Shown piece by piece: positions 24,090 to 31,372 of a stretch of DNA of 64,000 bases; position 1 is the stretch's first letter; every line of letters begins with the position of its first letter. The notes beneath the pieces were generated by a model. The model was given only the letters and a program-made list of their open reading frames with translations, did no database searches and was not told where the DNA came from. The stretch lies in assembly GCA_014192425.1 (NCBI GenBank), contig BJHK01000002.1, forward strand, positions 112,147-176,146, in the 5' to 3' direction. This DNA is from Planctomycetia bacterium. Lineage in GTDB: Bacteria > Planctomycetota > Planctomycetia > Pirellulales > UBA1268. The translations under genes and the position numbers were made by a program.

Positions 24090-26414
24090 ATGAACGACAA
24101 CCGGGAATTCATCGCCGAGTTTCTCGTCGAGTCGGTCGAGAACCTCGACCAGCTCGACCGCGACCTGCTCGCGCTCGAGGAGCGGCCCGACGATCCCGAC
24201 CGCGTGGCGAGCATCTTCCGCGCCGTCCACACCATCAAGGGCAACAGCGGCTTCTTCGGGTTCTCAAAGCTCGGGGCCCTGACCCATAGCGGGGAGCACC
24301 TGCTCGGCCGGCTCCGGGATGGGAAGCTCTCGCTCGACGGCCGCGTCACGGGCTCGCTGTACTCGATGGTCGATGCCGTGCGGTCGATCCTCAGGTCGAT
24401 CGAGGAGACCGGCGCCGAGGGCGACCACGACTTCCGCGAACTCTCGCGGACGCTCGCGACCGTGGCGACCGCGGAGGCCGCAACCGCCCGTGATGCGGCG
24501 GCTTCCGCCAGCTCCGCCATGCCAGCCTCGACCCCGACGCCCAAGCCGCAGTCCGCGGACGAACCCGCGCCGACACCGCCCGTGTTGGTCGCGCCCCTGC
24601 CCGTCGCGCCCCTGCCCGTCGCGCCCCTGCCCGTCGCGCCCCTGCCCGTCGCGCCCCTGCCCGTCGCGCCCCTGCCCGTCGCGCCCCTGCCCGTCGCGCC
24701 CCTGCCCGCCGCGCCAGCGCCCGCCGCGCCAGCGGCCGCCGCGCCAGCGGCCGTCACCGAGAGCACGATCCGCGTCGACGTCGGTCTCCTCGCCTCGATC
24801 CTCGACCTCGTCGGGGAGCTCGTGCTGGCCCGCAACCAGTTGCGCAGCATCGACACCCCCGACCCGGCGATCCAGGCCGTCTCGCAGCGGATCAACGCCG
24901 TCACGACCGCCCTCCAGGAAACAGCCGTCAAGACGCGGATGCAGCCGATCGACCACGTGTTCAGCAAGTTCCCACGGACCGTCCGCGACCTCGCCGTGGC
25001 CTGCGGCAAGGAGGTGCAGTTTCAGATCGACGGCGCCGACACCGAACTCGACCGGACGCTCGTGGAGAGCATCCGCGACCCGCTCACACACCTGATCCGC
25101 AATGCCGTCGATCACGGCATCGAGCCCCCCGACGTCCGCGCGGCGGCGGGCAAGCCGCGGGCCGGCCGGCTCCGGCTCCGGGCCTTCCAGGAGAGCGGCC
25201 AGGTGGTGATCGAGGTCGCCGACGACGGTGCCGGGATCGCCGTCGAGGCGGTGCGCGCCAAGGCCGTCGCCCGCGGGCTCGTCAGCGCGGACCAGGCGGC
25301 GACGCTGCCCGAGGACCGGGTGCTGCAGTTCATCTTCGAGCCCGGCTTCTCCACGGCCGCCCAGGTGACGAGTGTCTCGGGCCGCGGCGTCGGCATGGAC
25401 GTGGTGCGCACGAACATCGAGGCGATCAGCGGGACGGTCGACATCCAGAGCGTGGCCGGCCGGGGGACCACCGTCCGCGTCCGCGTGCCGCTCACGCTGG
25501 CGATCGTGCCGGCGCTCATCGTGCGCTGCGCCGGGGAACGGTTCGCGATCCCGCAGGTGGCGGTGACCGAGCTCGTCCGGCTCCGGCCGGGAGCGGCCGG
25601 GCCGCGGATCGAGGGCCTCGCCGACGCGCCGGTGATGCGGGTCCGGGGCCGGCTCGTGCCGGTCGTGTTCCTCGACCAGTTCCTCGGCCTGCGGCCGGCC
25701 GGCACCGAAAGCCGCGCGGAGGGGACCGTGGTCCTCATCCGCGTCGACGATCGCGAGTTCGGCCTCGTCGTCGACGGCATGAAGTCGGCCGGCGCCGAGA
25801 GCCGCGACCTGCGCGACGCCGCCAGCCTGTCCACGATCGTCGTCAAGCCGATCGGCGGGCTGCTCGCGGGACTGGGGATCTACTCCGGAGCCTCGATCCT
25901 CGGCGACGGGGGCCTGGTGCTGATCCTCGACCTGCGCGGCGTGCACCGGGTCGCCCGGCTGCCGGCGCTGGACCGCGCGGCCGAGACCGACACGGAACCG
26001 ACCGCACCCCCGGCGGCCCGGTATCTCGTCTGCGGCACACCCGCCGGCCACCGCGTGGCGGTGCCGCTGGCCGAGGTGGTCCGCCTCGAGCGCCACCGGC
26101 GCGACCAACTGCAGCGGGTCGGCAGCATGGCGGTCGTCAAGCGCGGAACCGGATTCACTCCCGTCGCCGACGTGGACGCGGTCATGGGCCGGCCGGGGTC
26201 GTCCGCGGACGACTCCCTGAGCCTCGTGGTCGTCGCCGGTGACGAGAGCGGCCTCGGCCTGGCCGTGAGCTCGATCGTCGACGTCTTCGCCGCCGAGTCG
26301 ACGCTGCAGCCGGCGACCGGGGCCGGTGTTGCCGGCATTCTCTCGCTCGGCGGCGTGGCCACCGAGGTGCTCGACCTCCGGGCCGCCCGGTCATGCGCGG
26401 CGGCGGGGAACTGA
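24090..26414 (+). CDS. cheA: Chemotaxis histidine kinase CheA with a repeat linker and two CheW domains
   Basis: A 774-residue kinase. P1 (HPt) is at 1-110, with phospho-acceptor His47 in AVHTIKGNSGFFGF. A linker at about 140-225 holds eight VAPLP repeats in place of P2. The dimerisation domain P3 begins at STIRVDVGLL. The ATPase P4 has HLIRNAVDHGIE, DDGAGIAVEAV and GRGVGMDVVRTN. The C-terminus has two CheW-like units (IVRCAGERFAIPQ and YLVCGTPAGHRVAVP), where CheA usually has one. No receiver domain is present. It is the first gene of the chemosensory operon. Confidence 0.95.
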   Translation: MNDNREFIAEFLVESVENLDQLDRDLLALEERPDDPDRVASIFRAVHTIKGNSGFFGFSKLGALTHSGEHLLGRLRDGKLSLDGRVTGSLYSMVDAVRSILRSIEETGAEGDHDFRELSRTLATVATAEAATARDAAASASSAMPASTPTPKPQSADEPAPTPPVLVAPLPVAPLPVAPLPVAPLPVAPLPVAPLPVAPLPVAPLPAAPAPAAPAAAAPAAVTESTIRVDVGLLASILDLVGELVLARNQLRSIDTPDPAIQAVSQRINAVTTALQETAVKTRMQPIDHVFSKFPRTVRDLAVACGKEVQFQIDGADTELDRTLVESIRDPLTHLIRNAVDHGIEPPDVRAAAGKPRAGRLRLRAFQESGQVVIEVADDGAGIAVEAVRAKAVARGLVSADQAATLPEDRVLQFIFEPGFSTAAQVTSVSGRGVGMDVVRTNIEAISGTVDIQSVAGRGTTVRVRVPLTLAIVPALIVRCAGERFAIPQVAVTELVRLRPGAAGPRIEGLADAPVMRVRGRLVPVVFLDQFLGLRPAGTESRAEGTVVLIRVDDREFGLVVDGMKSAGAESRDLRDAASLSTIVVKPIGGLLAGLGIYSGASILGDGGLVLILDLRGVHRVARLPALDRAAETDTEPTAPPAARYLVCGTPAGHRVAVPLAEVVRLERHRRDQLQRVGSMAVVKRGTGFTPVADVDAVMGRPGSSADDSLSLVVVAGDESGLGLAVSSIVDVFAAESTLQPATGAGVAGILSLGGVATEVLDLRAARSCAAAGN
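24588..24707 (+). repeat. 15-bp tandem repeat, eight copies, encoding VAPLP
   Basis: Unit gtcgcgcccctgccc repeated eight times without a change, then decaying to AAPAP and AAPAA codons. It forms the CheA linker. DNA identity across all copies suggests recent expansion or slippage. Confidence 0.95.
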
Positions 26415-26415
26415 C

Positions 26416-26886
26416 ATGGACGCGACATCTCCCCTCCGCTGCTGCACGTTTCGCATCGGCCCCGCCTGCTTCGCGATCCCGACCACGAGTGTCGTCGAGG
26501 TGCTGCGCGGCAGCCGGCTCACGCGGGTGCCGCAGGCGCCCGAGAGCGTTCTCGGCCTCATGCACCTGCGCGGCAGGATCGTGCCCGTCGTCGATCCCGC
26601 CGCCCGCCTCGGCATCGACAGGCCCGTGCCGGCCGGGGCCGCGCACCTCGTGATCGCGGTCCAGGAGGACTGGTACGCCCTGGCGATCGACGAAATGCTC
26701 GACGTGGCAGAGATTCCCGCGGCGGAGATCGAGCCTTCTGCCGGCGAGACGACGGTGGACGCCATTGCCGGCGTCCACGCCGCCCCGGACCGGCTCGTGC
26801 ATCTGCTCGATCCGGGGCGCATGATCCACTCACTGGTGCGGTCGCGGCCGCAAACTGAAAGGCAGGGTTCCCTTGGCAAAACGTGA
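26416..26886 (+). CDS. cheW: Chemotaxis coupling protein CheW
   Basis: A 156-residue SH3-like coupling protein: [21 protein letters not shown] at the start, then [20 protein letters not shown] and VDPAARLGI. It links the receptor to CheA. It starts one base after the cheA stop, and its last 14 bases overlap the receptor gene. Confidence 0.92.
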
Positions 26887-29014
26887 TCATTCCGCTGCCA
26901 CCGGCTCGTGGCGGTCGTTTCTCACCAATCCGCTCCTCCTCGCCCTGCTCGGGGTGTCGCTGATCCCGATGCTCTTCATGGGCATCATGAGCTACCGGAC
27001 CGCGGCGGCGGCGCTCGAGCAGCAGGCCTTCAAGCAGTTGGAGACCGTCAATACCGTCACCGGCAAGGCGGTGGAGCGGTATTTTGACACGCTGCACCAA
27101 GAAATCGCCGTGCTCGCCGAGGCGGAGACGAGCCGGGAGGCGCTCCGCGAGTTCACCGCCGGCATGGCGACGCTGCTGACCGACGACAAGGTCACCGACG
27201 CGGGCCTGGCCGCGGCCCGGCGCGAACTGGAAGCGTTCTACACCGGCGATTTCGCCACCGAGTACGAGAAGCGCACCGGCACGCCCAAGGACATGCGTCC
27301 GCTCGCCGAAGTTCTCGACGACGACGCGGCCTACGCCCAGTATCTCTACCTCCGCACCAACCCCAACCCGATCGGCTCGAAGCACCTCCTCGACGCCGCG
27401 GCCGACAACTCGGCCTACACGAAGGCCCACGCCCGCTGGCACCCCTTCTTCCGGAGCCTGAAGGAGAAATACGGCGTCTCCGACGTGTTCCTCATCGACG
27501 CCTCCCAGGGCCGCGTCGTCTACAACGCCTCCAAGGAAGTCGACTTCTGCGTCTCGATGCGGACCGGGCCGCTGGCCCAGTCGAACCTCGCCGCCGCCTT
27601 CCAGCAGGTGGCGGCGGCCGGCCGGCGCGGGGCCGTGACGTTCGGCCGCTTCCAACGCTACCTGCCGTCGTGCGATGCGCCGGCCGCCTTCCTCATGGCC
27701 TCGATCCACGACGGACGGACGTTCGTGGGAGCGCTGGCCTTCCAATTGCCGCTCGACCAGATCGACCGCATCGTCGGCGAGACGACCGGCATGGGGCGGA
27801 CCGGCGAGACGTACGCGATCGGGCCGGACCGGGAGTTCCGCAGCAACTCCCGATTCGCGGCGGAGATGGGGGTCAAGACGACGGTCATCAACGGCAAGTT
27901 CAAGGTCGACACGCCGGCCGTGAAGGCGGCGCTCGATCAGGGGACGGCCGGCACGGGGCTCCAGACGGGGCACCGCGGCAAGCCCGCGCTCGTCTCCTGG
28001 CGGCCGGTCACGGTGCACCGGGACGCCGGCGGGGGCGGCAACGACCTCCGCTGGGCGCTCGTCTCCGAGATCGACGCGGTCGAGGTCCGGGAGCCGATCA
28101 GCCGGCTGCTGCGGCTCGGCCTGACCGTGTTCGGCCTGACGGCCGCCGCAGTCCTCGCCGTCTCCTCGCTCATCGCCCGGCGGCTGACCAGCGAGTCGCG
28201 CCGGCAGGCGACCCTCGTCGGCGGCATCGTCGACAACACGCACGCCCTGGCCAGCGCCTCCGAGGAACTGACGAGCGTCAGCCAGCAGATGAGCGCCGCG
28301 GCCGAAGAGACCACCGCCCAGGCCAACCTCGTGTCGGCCGCCGCCGAGCAGGTCAGCGGCAACGCCCGTACCGTGTCGGGATCGATCGAGAACCTCGTGG
28401 CCAGCATCCACGACATCGCCCGCAACGCCCAGTCGGCGGCGACGACGGCCCGCCAGGCGGTGGACATGGCGACCACGACTTCGACAACGATGAACGCCCT
28501 GGGCCACTCCAGCAACGAGATCGGCGCCGTCGTCAAGGTGATCAACTCGATCGCCGAGCAGACGAACCTCCTCGCCCTCAACGCCACGATCGAGGCGGCG
28601 CGGGCCGGTGAGGCGGGCAAGGGGTTCGCCGTCGTCGCCAACGAGGTCAAGGAGCTGGCCCGCGAGACGGCCAAGGCGACCGAGGATATCGGCGGCCGGA
28701 TCGAGGGCATGCAGGGGGAGGCACGGCGGGCGGTCGAGGCGATCGCCGAGATCGGCTCCGTGATCGAGAAGATCGACGCCCTGCAGACGAAGATCGCCGC
28801 GGCCGTCGAGGAGCAGTCGGTGACCACCGGGGAGATCGGCCGCAACATCGCCGAGGCCACGACCGGCTCAGCGGAGATCGCCGAGAACATCGTCCAGGTC
28901 GCCCGGGCGGCACAGAGCACGGCCGAGGGGGCGGCCAACACGCAGGTCTCGTCGCAGGAACTGTCGCGGATGGCCCAGGCCCTGCAGCGGCTGGTCGAGG
29001 ACTACAGGAAGTGA
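26873..29014 (+). CDS. Methyl-accepting chemotaxis protein
   Basis: A 713-residue receptor using a TTG start at 26873, inside cheW, with AAAGGCAGGG upstream. TM1 is at about 20-42. A large periplasmic Cache-type sensor spans 45-410 and includes [17 protein letters not shown]2 is at about 418-440. The cytoplasmic part has no clear HAMP domain. The signalling tip is [21 protein letters not shown] followed by [15 protein letters not shown]. The ligand is unknown. It is the only receptor in the operon. Confidence 0.93.
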
Positions 29015-29060: not shown

Positions 29061-30524
29061 ATGCGGGCGCTCGTCGTCGACGACTCGAAGCCGGTGCGGA
29101 GCATCGTGGCACGGACGCTCCGTGAGCTGCGGTTCGACTGCACCGAGGCGAGCAACGGCGTCGAGGCCCTCGACGCGATCGCGGCCTCTGGCCCGCCCGA
29201 CCTGGTGACGGTCAACTGGCACATGCCGGTCATGGACGGCCTGGAACTCGTCCGCCGGCTGCGGCGTGACCCGGCCCACCGCCACCTGCCGCTGCTCATG
29301 ATCTCCACGGAGCACGAGCGGGAGCGGATCGCGCTGGCCCTGGAGGCGGGCGTCGACGACTACCTCGCCAAGCCGTTCACGCCCGCGTCGCTGGCCCGCA
29401 AGCTGGTGGCCATCGGCGTCTGCTCCGAGTCGGCGGCCGCGGGCCGGCGACCGATCCGTGTGCTCGTCTGCGACGACTCGCTGACGATCCGCACCGTCCT
29501 CACGACGACGCTCGGTGCGGACGCCGACCTGGAGATCGCGGGCACGGCGATCAACGGCCAGGCCTGCCTCGACGCGCTGGCCGCCGACCTGCCCGACCTC
29601 GTCGTCCTCGACGTCGAGATGCCGGTCATGGACGGGATCAGCGCCCTGCGCGAGATCCGCCGGCGGCATGCGAAGCTCCCGGTGGTGATGTTCTCGAGCC
29701 TCACCGAGCGCGGGGCGCAGGCGACGGTCGACGCGCTCCTGGCCGGCGCCAACGACTACGTCGCCAAGCCGGCCGGCCTCAATCCGGCCGAGGTCGGCGC
29801 CCGGATCCGCGACGACCTCGTCGGCCGGATCAAGGCCCTCGTGCCCCGGCTGCGCCCGGCGGCCCCCGAGGCACTCCCGCGCGGATCGACGCCGACGCCG
29901 CCGGCGCCGATCGTGGCACGGCCGCGGCCGGCGGGGATGCGCGCGCCGATCCGGGGCGTCGTGATCGCGGTCTCGACCGGCGGCCCGGCGGCTCTCGCCG
30001 AGATGCTGCCCGCCTGCGTGGCCGGGGCCGGCGTGCCGATCCTGATCGTGCAGCACATGCCGGCATTCTTCACGGCCCAACTCGCCGAGCGGCTGGGAAA
30101 GATCTGCGCCGTCCCGGTCCGCGAGGCGACCGACGGGATGCTGGTGACGCCGGGCACGGTGCTCCTCGCTCCCGGCGGCCGCCACATGGAACTTGTGGGT
30201 GATCCGCTCATGCCGCGGATCAGGCTCGGCGACGGACCGCCGGAGAACTCCTGCCGGCCGTCGGCCGACGTGCTCTTCCGCTCGGCGGCCCGGCTCTGGG
30301 CCGCCGGCACGCTCGGCGTGGTGCTCACCGGCATGGGTCGCGACGGCCTGGCGGGCTCGCGGGCGATCGTCGAGGCGGGGGGCGGCATCATCGCCCAGGA
30401 CGAGTTTTCCAGCGTCGTCTGGGGCATGCCGGGCGAGGTCGTCCGCGCGGGGCTCGCCGACGCGGTGCTGCCCGTGGCGCAGATCGGCGTCGAGGTCGCC
30501 CTGCGGCTCAAGAGGCGCGGCTGA
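29061..30524 (+). CDS. cheB: CheY-like pseudo-receiver fused to CheB methylesterase
   Basis: A 487-residue fusion in three parts. Residues 1-120 are a CheY-type receiver: Asp7/Asp8 and the conserved Lys in LAKPF are kept, but the phospho-acceptor position is Asn52 (VTVNWHMP). Residues about 132-255 are the CheB receiver, with Asp184 intact in VVLDVEMP. Residues about 300-485 are the methylesterase, with catalytic Ser in VSTGGPAAL, His in QHMPAFFTAQLA and Asp in TGMGRDGLAG. CheB removes methyl groups from the receptor. The fused domain cannot be phosphorylated at the normal site. Confidence 0.9.
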   Translation: MRALVVDDSKPVRSIVARTLRELRFDCTEASNGVEALDAIAASGPPDLVTVNWHMPVMDGLELVRRLRRDPAHRHLPLLMISTEHERERIALALEAGVDDYLAKPFTPASLARKLVAIGVCSESAAAGRRPIRVLVCDDSLTIRTVLTTTLGADADLEIAGTAINGQACLDALAADLPDLVVLDVEMPVMDGISALREIRRRHAKLPVVMFSSLTERGAQATVDALLAGANDYVAKPAGLNPAEVGARIRDDLVGRIKALVPRLRPAAPEALPRGSTPTPPAPIVARPRPAGMRAPIRGVVIAVSTGGPAALAEMLPACVAGAGVPILIVQHMPAFFTAQLAERLGKICAVPVREATDGMLVTPGTVLLAPGGRHMELVGDPLMPRIRLGDGPPENSCRPSADVLFRSAARLWAAGTLGVVLTGMGRDGLAGSRAIVEAGGGIIAQDEFSSVVWGMPGEVVRAGLADAVLPVAQIGVEVALRLKRRG

Positions 30525-30544: not shown

Positions 30545-31372
30545 ATGAAGGTCGCCGAGCCGCAGTTCGCCTATCTCCGCGACCTGCTCAAGCGCCGCAC
30601 CGGAGTGTGCATCGACGATTCGAAGCATTACCTCGTCGTCGCCCGCCTCCTGCCGCTGGTGCGGCAGCGGAAGCTGCCGAGCATCGAAACGCTCCTCGAC
30701 CGGGTCCGGCAGGGAACCGACAAGACGCTCGAGCCGCAGGTGCTCTGTGCACTGATGACGCACGAGACCTCGTTCTTTCGCGACCGGGCCCCGTTCGACA
30801 CGCTCGTTCGGCTCATCACCGAGCTCGTGCCGCGCCGGGCTGCGAAGCGGCAGCTCGTCATTTGGTCGGCCGCCTGCGCGACCGGCCAGGAGCCGTACAG
30901 CATCGCGATGACGCTCCTCGAGCACTTTCGCGACCTGCTCGCCACGTGGCGTGTGCGGATCATCGCCACCGACTTCTCCGAGCAGGCCCTGGAGCGGGCC
31001 CGGGCGGGACTGTTCAGCGAACTGGAGACGGCCCGGGGGATGCCGCCGCCGATGCTGCACAAGTATTTCCGCCAGCTGCAGGGGAGCTGGAGCATCGTCC
31101 AGGAGGTCCGCCAGTTGGTGGAGTTTCGGCAGCTGAATCTCAACGCCGCCTGGCCGATCCTCCCGACCTGCGATGTGATCTTCCTCCGGAACGTGATGCT
31201 GTATTTCGACGTCCCGACGCGGGCGGCGCTCGTGCAACGGGTCCGCCGGCAGCTCGAGCCCGACGGCGGCCTGTTCCTCGGCGGCGCCGAGACGCTTATC
31301 GGCATCGACACCGGCTACGACCGCGTCGCCGGCGTCGGCTGCAGCTACTACCGACCCAAGGCCCGCGGCTGA
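30545..31372 (+). CDS. cheR: Chemotaxis protein methyltransferase CheR
   Basis: A 275-residue SAM-dependent methyltransferase: an N-terminal helical domain, then THETSFFRD, the SAM-binding WSAACATGQEPYSIAM, ATDFSEQALERAR and the CDVIFLRNVMLYF block. It methylates the receptor's Glu residues. It closes the operon, 20 bases after cheB. No separate functional CheY was found downstream. Confidence 0.95.
   Translation: MKVAEPQFAYLRDLLKRRTGVCIDDSKHYLVVARLLPLVRQRKLPSIETLLDRVRQGTDKTLEPQVLCALMTHETSFFRDRAPFDTLVRLITELVPRRAAKRQLVIWSAACATGQEPYSIAMTLLEHFRDLLATWRVRIIATDFSEQALERARAGLFSELETARGMPPPMLHKYFRQLQGSWSIVQEVRQLVEFRQLNLNAAWPILPTCDVIFLRNVMLYFDVPTRAALVQRVRRQLEPDGGLFLGGAETLIGIDTGYDRVAGVGCSYYRPKARG

Follow-up and report, generated by a model that had tools for sequence, protein, structure and literature searches.

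In a family of planctomycete chemosensory operons, the CheY receiver has been joined to the N terminus of the methylesterase CheB and has lost its phosphoacceptor aspartate. Our comparisons, made at the level of sequence, show the fusion itself, the fixation of an asparagine at the phosphoacceptor position, purifying selection on the fused domain, the loss of cheX, and linkage to genes for a STAS protein and a REC-PP2C phosphatase. Because the Asp is missing, the fused receiver, REC1, is presumably non-phosphorylatable, and we favor as probable a model in which the fused CheY no longer serves as a diffusible output and has become a fixed adaptor or regulatory domain of CheB, output probably being relayed via REC-PP2C. 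The whole sensory pathway has apparently been rewired along with the fusion and the loss of the phosphosite.

The operon and the fusion protein

The window, a 64,000-nucleotide stretch of the genome of a Planctomycetia bacterium, contains an operon with the gene order CheA–CheW–MCP–(REC1–REC2–CheB)–CheR. Its features are as follows.

24090..26414, + strand: CheA, with Hpt, dimerisation, HATPase and CheW domains and no receiver (Pfam)
26416..26886, + strand: CheW (Pfam)
26873..29014, + strand: methyl-accepting chemoreceptor, MCP (Pfam)
29061..30524, + strand: REC1–REC2–CheB fusion gene, ATG start, 487 aa (open reading frame and Pfam)
29061..29414, + strand: REC1, CheY-derived receiver without phosphoacceptor Asp, residues 1-118 (Pfam, family alignment, outgroup comparison, fold match)
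29079..29084, + strand: Asp7 and Asp8, metal-binding acidic pair of REC1, kept (Asp7 in 50/50 and Asp8 in 48/50 of the family)
29208..29210, + strand: Thr50 of REC1, invariant in the family (50/50; Leu in 52/58 outgroup rows)
29214..29216, + strand: codon AAC, Asn52, the REC1 phosphoacceptor position, in the motif VTVNWHMP
29304..29306, + strand: Ser82, REC1 switch residue, Ser in 49/50 of the family (Thr in 54/58 outgroup rows)
29370..29372, + strand: Lys104 of REC1, invariant (50/50 of the family)
29448..29810, + strand: REC2, ordinary CheB receiver, about residues 130-250 (Asp184 codon at 29610-29612)
29958..30491, + strand: CheB methylesterase domain (PF01339, 4.4e-60)
30545..31372, + strand: CheR methyltransferase, with no cheX 3' of it here (Pfam)

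Pfam finds two Response_reg stretches in the 487-aa product, followed by CheB_methylest at residues 300-477. The C-terminal part has both hallmarks of a CheB methylesterase: the catalytic residues Ser305, His332 and Asp428, which are invariant among 44 aligned relatives, and a receiver Asp directly before the esterase domain. The latter, Asp184 of REC2, is Asp in 49/49 family members, in line with the claim of an earlier, sequence-only reading that the CheB receiver retains its Asp. The fusion thus shares REC2, the esterase, the catalytic Ser-His-Asp and the receiver Asp with E. coli/Salmonella-type CheB (PF01339, N-terminal receiver), but has an extra N-terminal CheY-type receiver without a phosphoacceptor. 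REC1 is not a single-domain CheY, as in the family members it shares an open frame with CheB and carries Asn52 in place of Asp; it has the character of an aspartate-less receiver, scoring above the PF00072 cut-off in the window's own genome.

Structure prediction agrees with these assignments. In the predicted model REC1 folds like CheY (Z about 22) and is 44% identical to the E. coli protein across 118 residues, while REC2 and the catalytic part match CheB structures 6ymz and 1a2o with Z of 39.1 and 37.9, respectively. The AlphaFold2 model of the fusion is confident for the domains individually, and its pTM of 0.59 gives no domain arrangement to rely on. Modelled REC1 differs from CheY-BeF3 by 0.9 Å and from inactive CheY by 1.1 Å, a gap too small to read and possibly a product of prediction bias.

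The sequence-only reading was correct that the operon lacks a free CheY, as no separate cheY was found in it. A stand-alone CheY-like protein with Asp is encoded elsewhere in the genome, outside the window, on contig C2 at about 196.7 kb (L006:1459-1836 (-), G000); an apparent CheD gene follows it, and a second CheB gene is nearby at C2:203.8 kb. The same reading proposed that REC1 could act as a fixed docking or inhibitory domain. A retained, non-phosphorylatable REC1 fits the sequence data, but docking via the P2 domain of CheA is unlikely, because Pfam detects no P2, the usual CheY docking site, in the CheA of the window. The CheA linker from the Hpt to the dimerisation domain (window positions 24600-24800) carries a run of PVAPL repeats, and no P2 was detected in it.

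Origin of the fusion and fixation of asparagine

The family is represented here by 50 aligned loci from separate genomes, all planctomycete MAGs of the order Pirellulales; several of its named records are Planctomycetaceae or Pirellulales, and several come from lakes. REC1 residue 52 is Asn at 48/50 loci, Asp at one and Thr at one. Both Asn codons are in use across the 48 (AAC at 34 and AAT at 14), which indicates that Asn has been held while the codon drifted and does not recur by chance. The alignment confirms AAC as the codon in question and the retention of the Asp7/Asp8 pair and the Lys, as first described, and it confirms Asn52 as a real and conserved feature of the family that, judged from the sequences, is ancestral and maintained, a stronger statement than the one originally made. 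The possibility that homologues would carry Asp, making Asn specific to one strain, did not hold within the family; Asp occurs in CheYs outside it. With Asn at so many loci from separate genomes, and with no support found for it, a strain-specific mutation or a sequencing error has a negligible probability.

The two exceptions are informative. The single Asp, encoded by GAC at L034:1492-2928 (G026), is accompanied by all other active-site residues of REC1, and because this genome is nested in a group that otherwise has Asn, the Asp is most simply a reversion, making G026 a natural revertant. The Thr occurs at locus L051 (G001), where the acidic pair is also altered. The return of Asp in one member and the presence of Thr in another count against the adaptor reading, in that loss of the phosphosite is not absolute.

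Outside the family the arrangement is different. The outgroup consisted of 12 planctomycete loci together with named records from Verrucomicrobiota, Acidobacteriota, Actinomycetota, Alphaproteobacteria and others, and 56 CheY rows were counted after removal of two family members that had been fetched twice. The phosphosite is Asp in 56/56 of these rows and Asn in 0/56, and in the 12 loci, as in the named records, cheY invariably forms a gene of its own upstream of cheB. When the class (397 genomes) and the order (396 genomes) were searched, the best full-length matches from beyond the family had their REC1 and CheB parts separated by one or two stop codons, the mark of a separate cheY ahead of cheB, and no CheY–CheB fusion was found outside the family among the 396 genomes of the order. 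Since the free outgroup CheYs carry Asp, the Asn is a derived trait of the fused form. In a tree of the shared REC2–CheB part, all fused proteins fall on one side of a branch with support of 99/96, so that a single fusion suffices to explain them, and Asn is found in both branches of the deepest split within the fused clade, which places its fixation before their last common ancestor.

Collectively, these comparisons show that a free, phosphorylatable CheY, whose gene lay between those for the receptor and CheB, was joined a single time, in the ancestor of the family, to the N terminus of CheB, and that the phosphoacceptor Asp of the fused CheY became Asn. The free CheYs of planctomycete, verrucomicrobial and acidobacterial che operons occupy the same gene position, are about 39-47% identical to REC1 and share its active-site set except for the Asp. 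In contrast to REC1, which is fused, carries Asn and has no cheX, they are separate genes with Asp and, in planctomycetes, with cheX downstream. An ancestral-type operon in G378 contains a pair of CheX genes that flank a second free CheY (Asp) (L060:11301-12943).

Selective constraint on REC1

A decaying domain is ruled out by the substitution rates: summed dN/dS over 17 close pairs is 0.12 in REC1, 0.10 in REC2 and 0.11 in the esterase domain, showing, for the coding sequences compared, that purifying selection acts on REC1 as it does on its two neighbors. Relative to outgroup CheYs, the pocket of REC1 has acquired, besides D52N, the fixed or nearly fixed changes L50T, N54H/Q, T82S and M103A, while the DD pair, the Lys and the aromatic residue at K-3 are retained in the family. 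Comparison of family with outgroup also reveals a redistribution of conservation, which has gone down at α4-β5-α5 (positions 94, 96, 98, 100, 101, 103 and 114) and up at the start of α1 (positions 10, 11, 14, 15 and 16). In CheY, α4-β5-α5 is the face for output partners, and known complexes show the kinase or Hpt domain on the side where α1 starts. Conservation in REC1 has thus moved from the CheY output face to α1, which is a shift and not proof of contact.

These patterns are consistent with REC1 acting as a fixed adaptor or regulatory domain of CheB. Such a domain would take no phosphoryl groups from CheA and so would not compete with the adjacent CheB receiver; its α1/active-site face may contact CheA, REC2 or the esterase domain and thereby place or gate the esterase, and CheB, to judge from the conservation of Asp184, would still be switched via REC2. 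Counting against this reading, CheA shows no P2 domain, and the conserved DD, Ser and Lys exceed the obvious needs of a passive docking domain. A less probable alternative, though one with an appreciable chance, is that REC1 is a passive leftover: the stop codon of cheY would have been lost once CheY output was dispensable, Asp-to-Asn would have been selected only to stop the drain of phosphate from REC2, and the domain would have been kept for the folding or stability of CheB. The loss of both cheX and a separate CheY and the relaxed constraint on the output face are what such a history would leave. The new, fixed L50T and T82S and the tightened α1 motif suggest instead a positive role, and a REC1 constrained as strongly as REC2 also argues against a leftover.

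The near-invariance of DD, Ser/Thr and Lys despite the missing Asp could also be explained if Asn52 were a precursor, the intact site (DD, Ser, Lys and metal) deamidating Asn to Asp so that the CheY domain, silent in new CheB, gains the capacity for phosphorylation as the protein ages or through regulated deamidation. The N-W context of Asn52 matches D57-W58 of E. coli CheY, which would fit such a conversion. According to PMC4395418, a 2015 paper on aspartate-less receivers that cites Wolanin 2003 on CheY, rapid reversion to Asp can occur in a receiver with Asn at the phosphosite. Four observations make the precursor reading improbable: CheX, which would reset CheY-P, has been lost; the output face is relaxed; the Asn at D+2 has become His or Gln and the switch Thr has become Ser; and Asn is kept where, were conversion usual, Asp itself would do. 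A form of this idea in which the active site of REC1 itself converts Asn52, so that a silenced receiver switches on with age as a chemical timer inside an adaptation enzyme, is marginally less probable still.

Phosphorylation of REC1 at another residue (e.g., Thr50, Ser82 or Thr83), or by a Ser/Thr kinase, is less credible than either. Thr50 is invariant and Ser82 near-invariant, as a switched residue might be, but Thr at D-2 also occurs in ordinary Asp receivers, one example being the VTLD motif in the CheB of L060, and a site like Ser56 of CheY was rejected, the equivalent residue in the family being Val, Ile or Leu. Cys27, present in 49/50 loci, was considered as a redox switch on the model of Hp1021, with its Cys at DD+19, and was also rejected, as hand alignment places it at Val33 of CheY in β2, where it is probably buried.

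Output of the pathway and relation to known systems

Two changes around the operon accompany the fusion. In 10/10 planctomycete outgroup operons with a visible flank, cheX, of the CheY-P phosphatase family (PF13690), lies directly 3' of cheR, and CheX scores above the cut-off somewhere in 11/12 planctomycete outgroup genomes; it does so in 0/19 family genomes. Sub-threshold CheX-like matches occur in three family genomes (G026:C29:21399-21596, G035:C232:4857-5057 and G033:C165:1595-1813). In addition, the family has genes for STAS and for REC-SpoIIE (PP2C, with an intact Asp) in convergent orientation to cheR. The REC-PP2C gene occupies this place in 40/45 family loci checked (for an example of the pair, see L083:10329-12160 (-)), whereas the pair is present in 0/8 outgroup loci whose flank extends beyond 2.4 kb. 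With the diffusible output of CheY gone and CheX lost, output has probably moved to other response regulators, and the linkage beside the operon suggests the REC-PP2C (SpoIIE-type) phosphatase and its STAS partner as the likeliest new route.

Counting against this model, the window's own genome has its STAS/REC-PP2C pair (79% identical) on another contig, C11 (L160:4532-6695 (+)). Another che cluster from the same class, that of G273, has a REC-PP2C gene (55% identical) directly after cheB (L074:9475-10833), which by its gene order is an independent link of che genes to a REC-PP2C phosphatase. Flagellar output was rejected for this pathway: FliM was found in 0/19 family genomes, with positive controls detected, and in only 2/12 of the outgroup genomes carrying the ancestral operon, which means that flagella need not be what the pathway controls.

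Receivers without a phosphoacceptor are known from other settings. REC1 shares with aspartate-less receivers and pseudo-receivers (ALR/PsR), such as RitR with Asn53, a receiver fold without the phospho-Asp, and Asn accounts for 16% of ALR substitutions (PMC4395418). REC1 differs in keeping DD, Ser/Thr and Lys nearly invariant, whereas among pseudo-receivers in general the DD2 position lacks an acidic residue in about 80% of cases, and T and K each survive in about 65% (PMC12632262). PleD (receiver–pseudoreceiver–GGDEF) likewise has a receiver and a pseudo-receiver in tandem ahead of an enzyme, but in the fusion the pseudo-receiver comes first and the enzyme is CheB. Thus, Asn pseudo-receivers and tandem receiver/pseudo-receivers are already known, and fusion to CheB appears to be the new part. 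No description of a CheY–CheB fusion or of a pseudo-receiver CheB was found in the open-access literature, one search being obscured by unrelated papers, and neither PMC4395418 nor PMC12632262 mentions this setting.

The origin and action of pseudo-receivers in bacteria are largely unknown (PMC12632262). In the present family, the states before and after the change survive in related genomes, in the same operon and at the same gene position, as a free CheY-Asp with CheX and a fused CheY-Asn without it, and loss of the phosphosite is placed on the branch of the fusion and tied to the loss of CheX and to the linked REC-PP2C/STAS pair. These surviving states and coupled operon changes make the route from messenger to fixed domain testable. 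If output has indeed moved to a partner-switching phosphatase, this would represent a new chemosensory wiring in planctomycetes without flagella.
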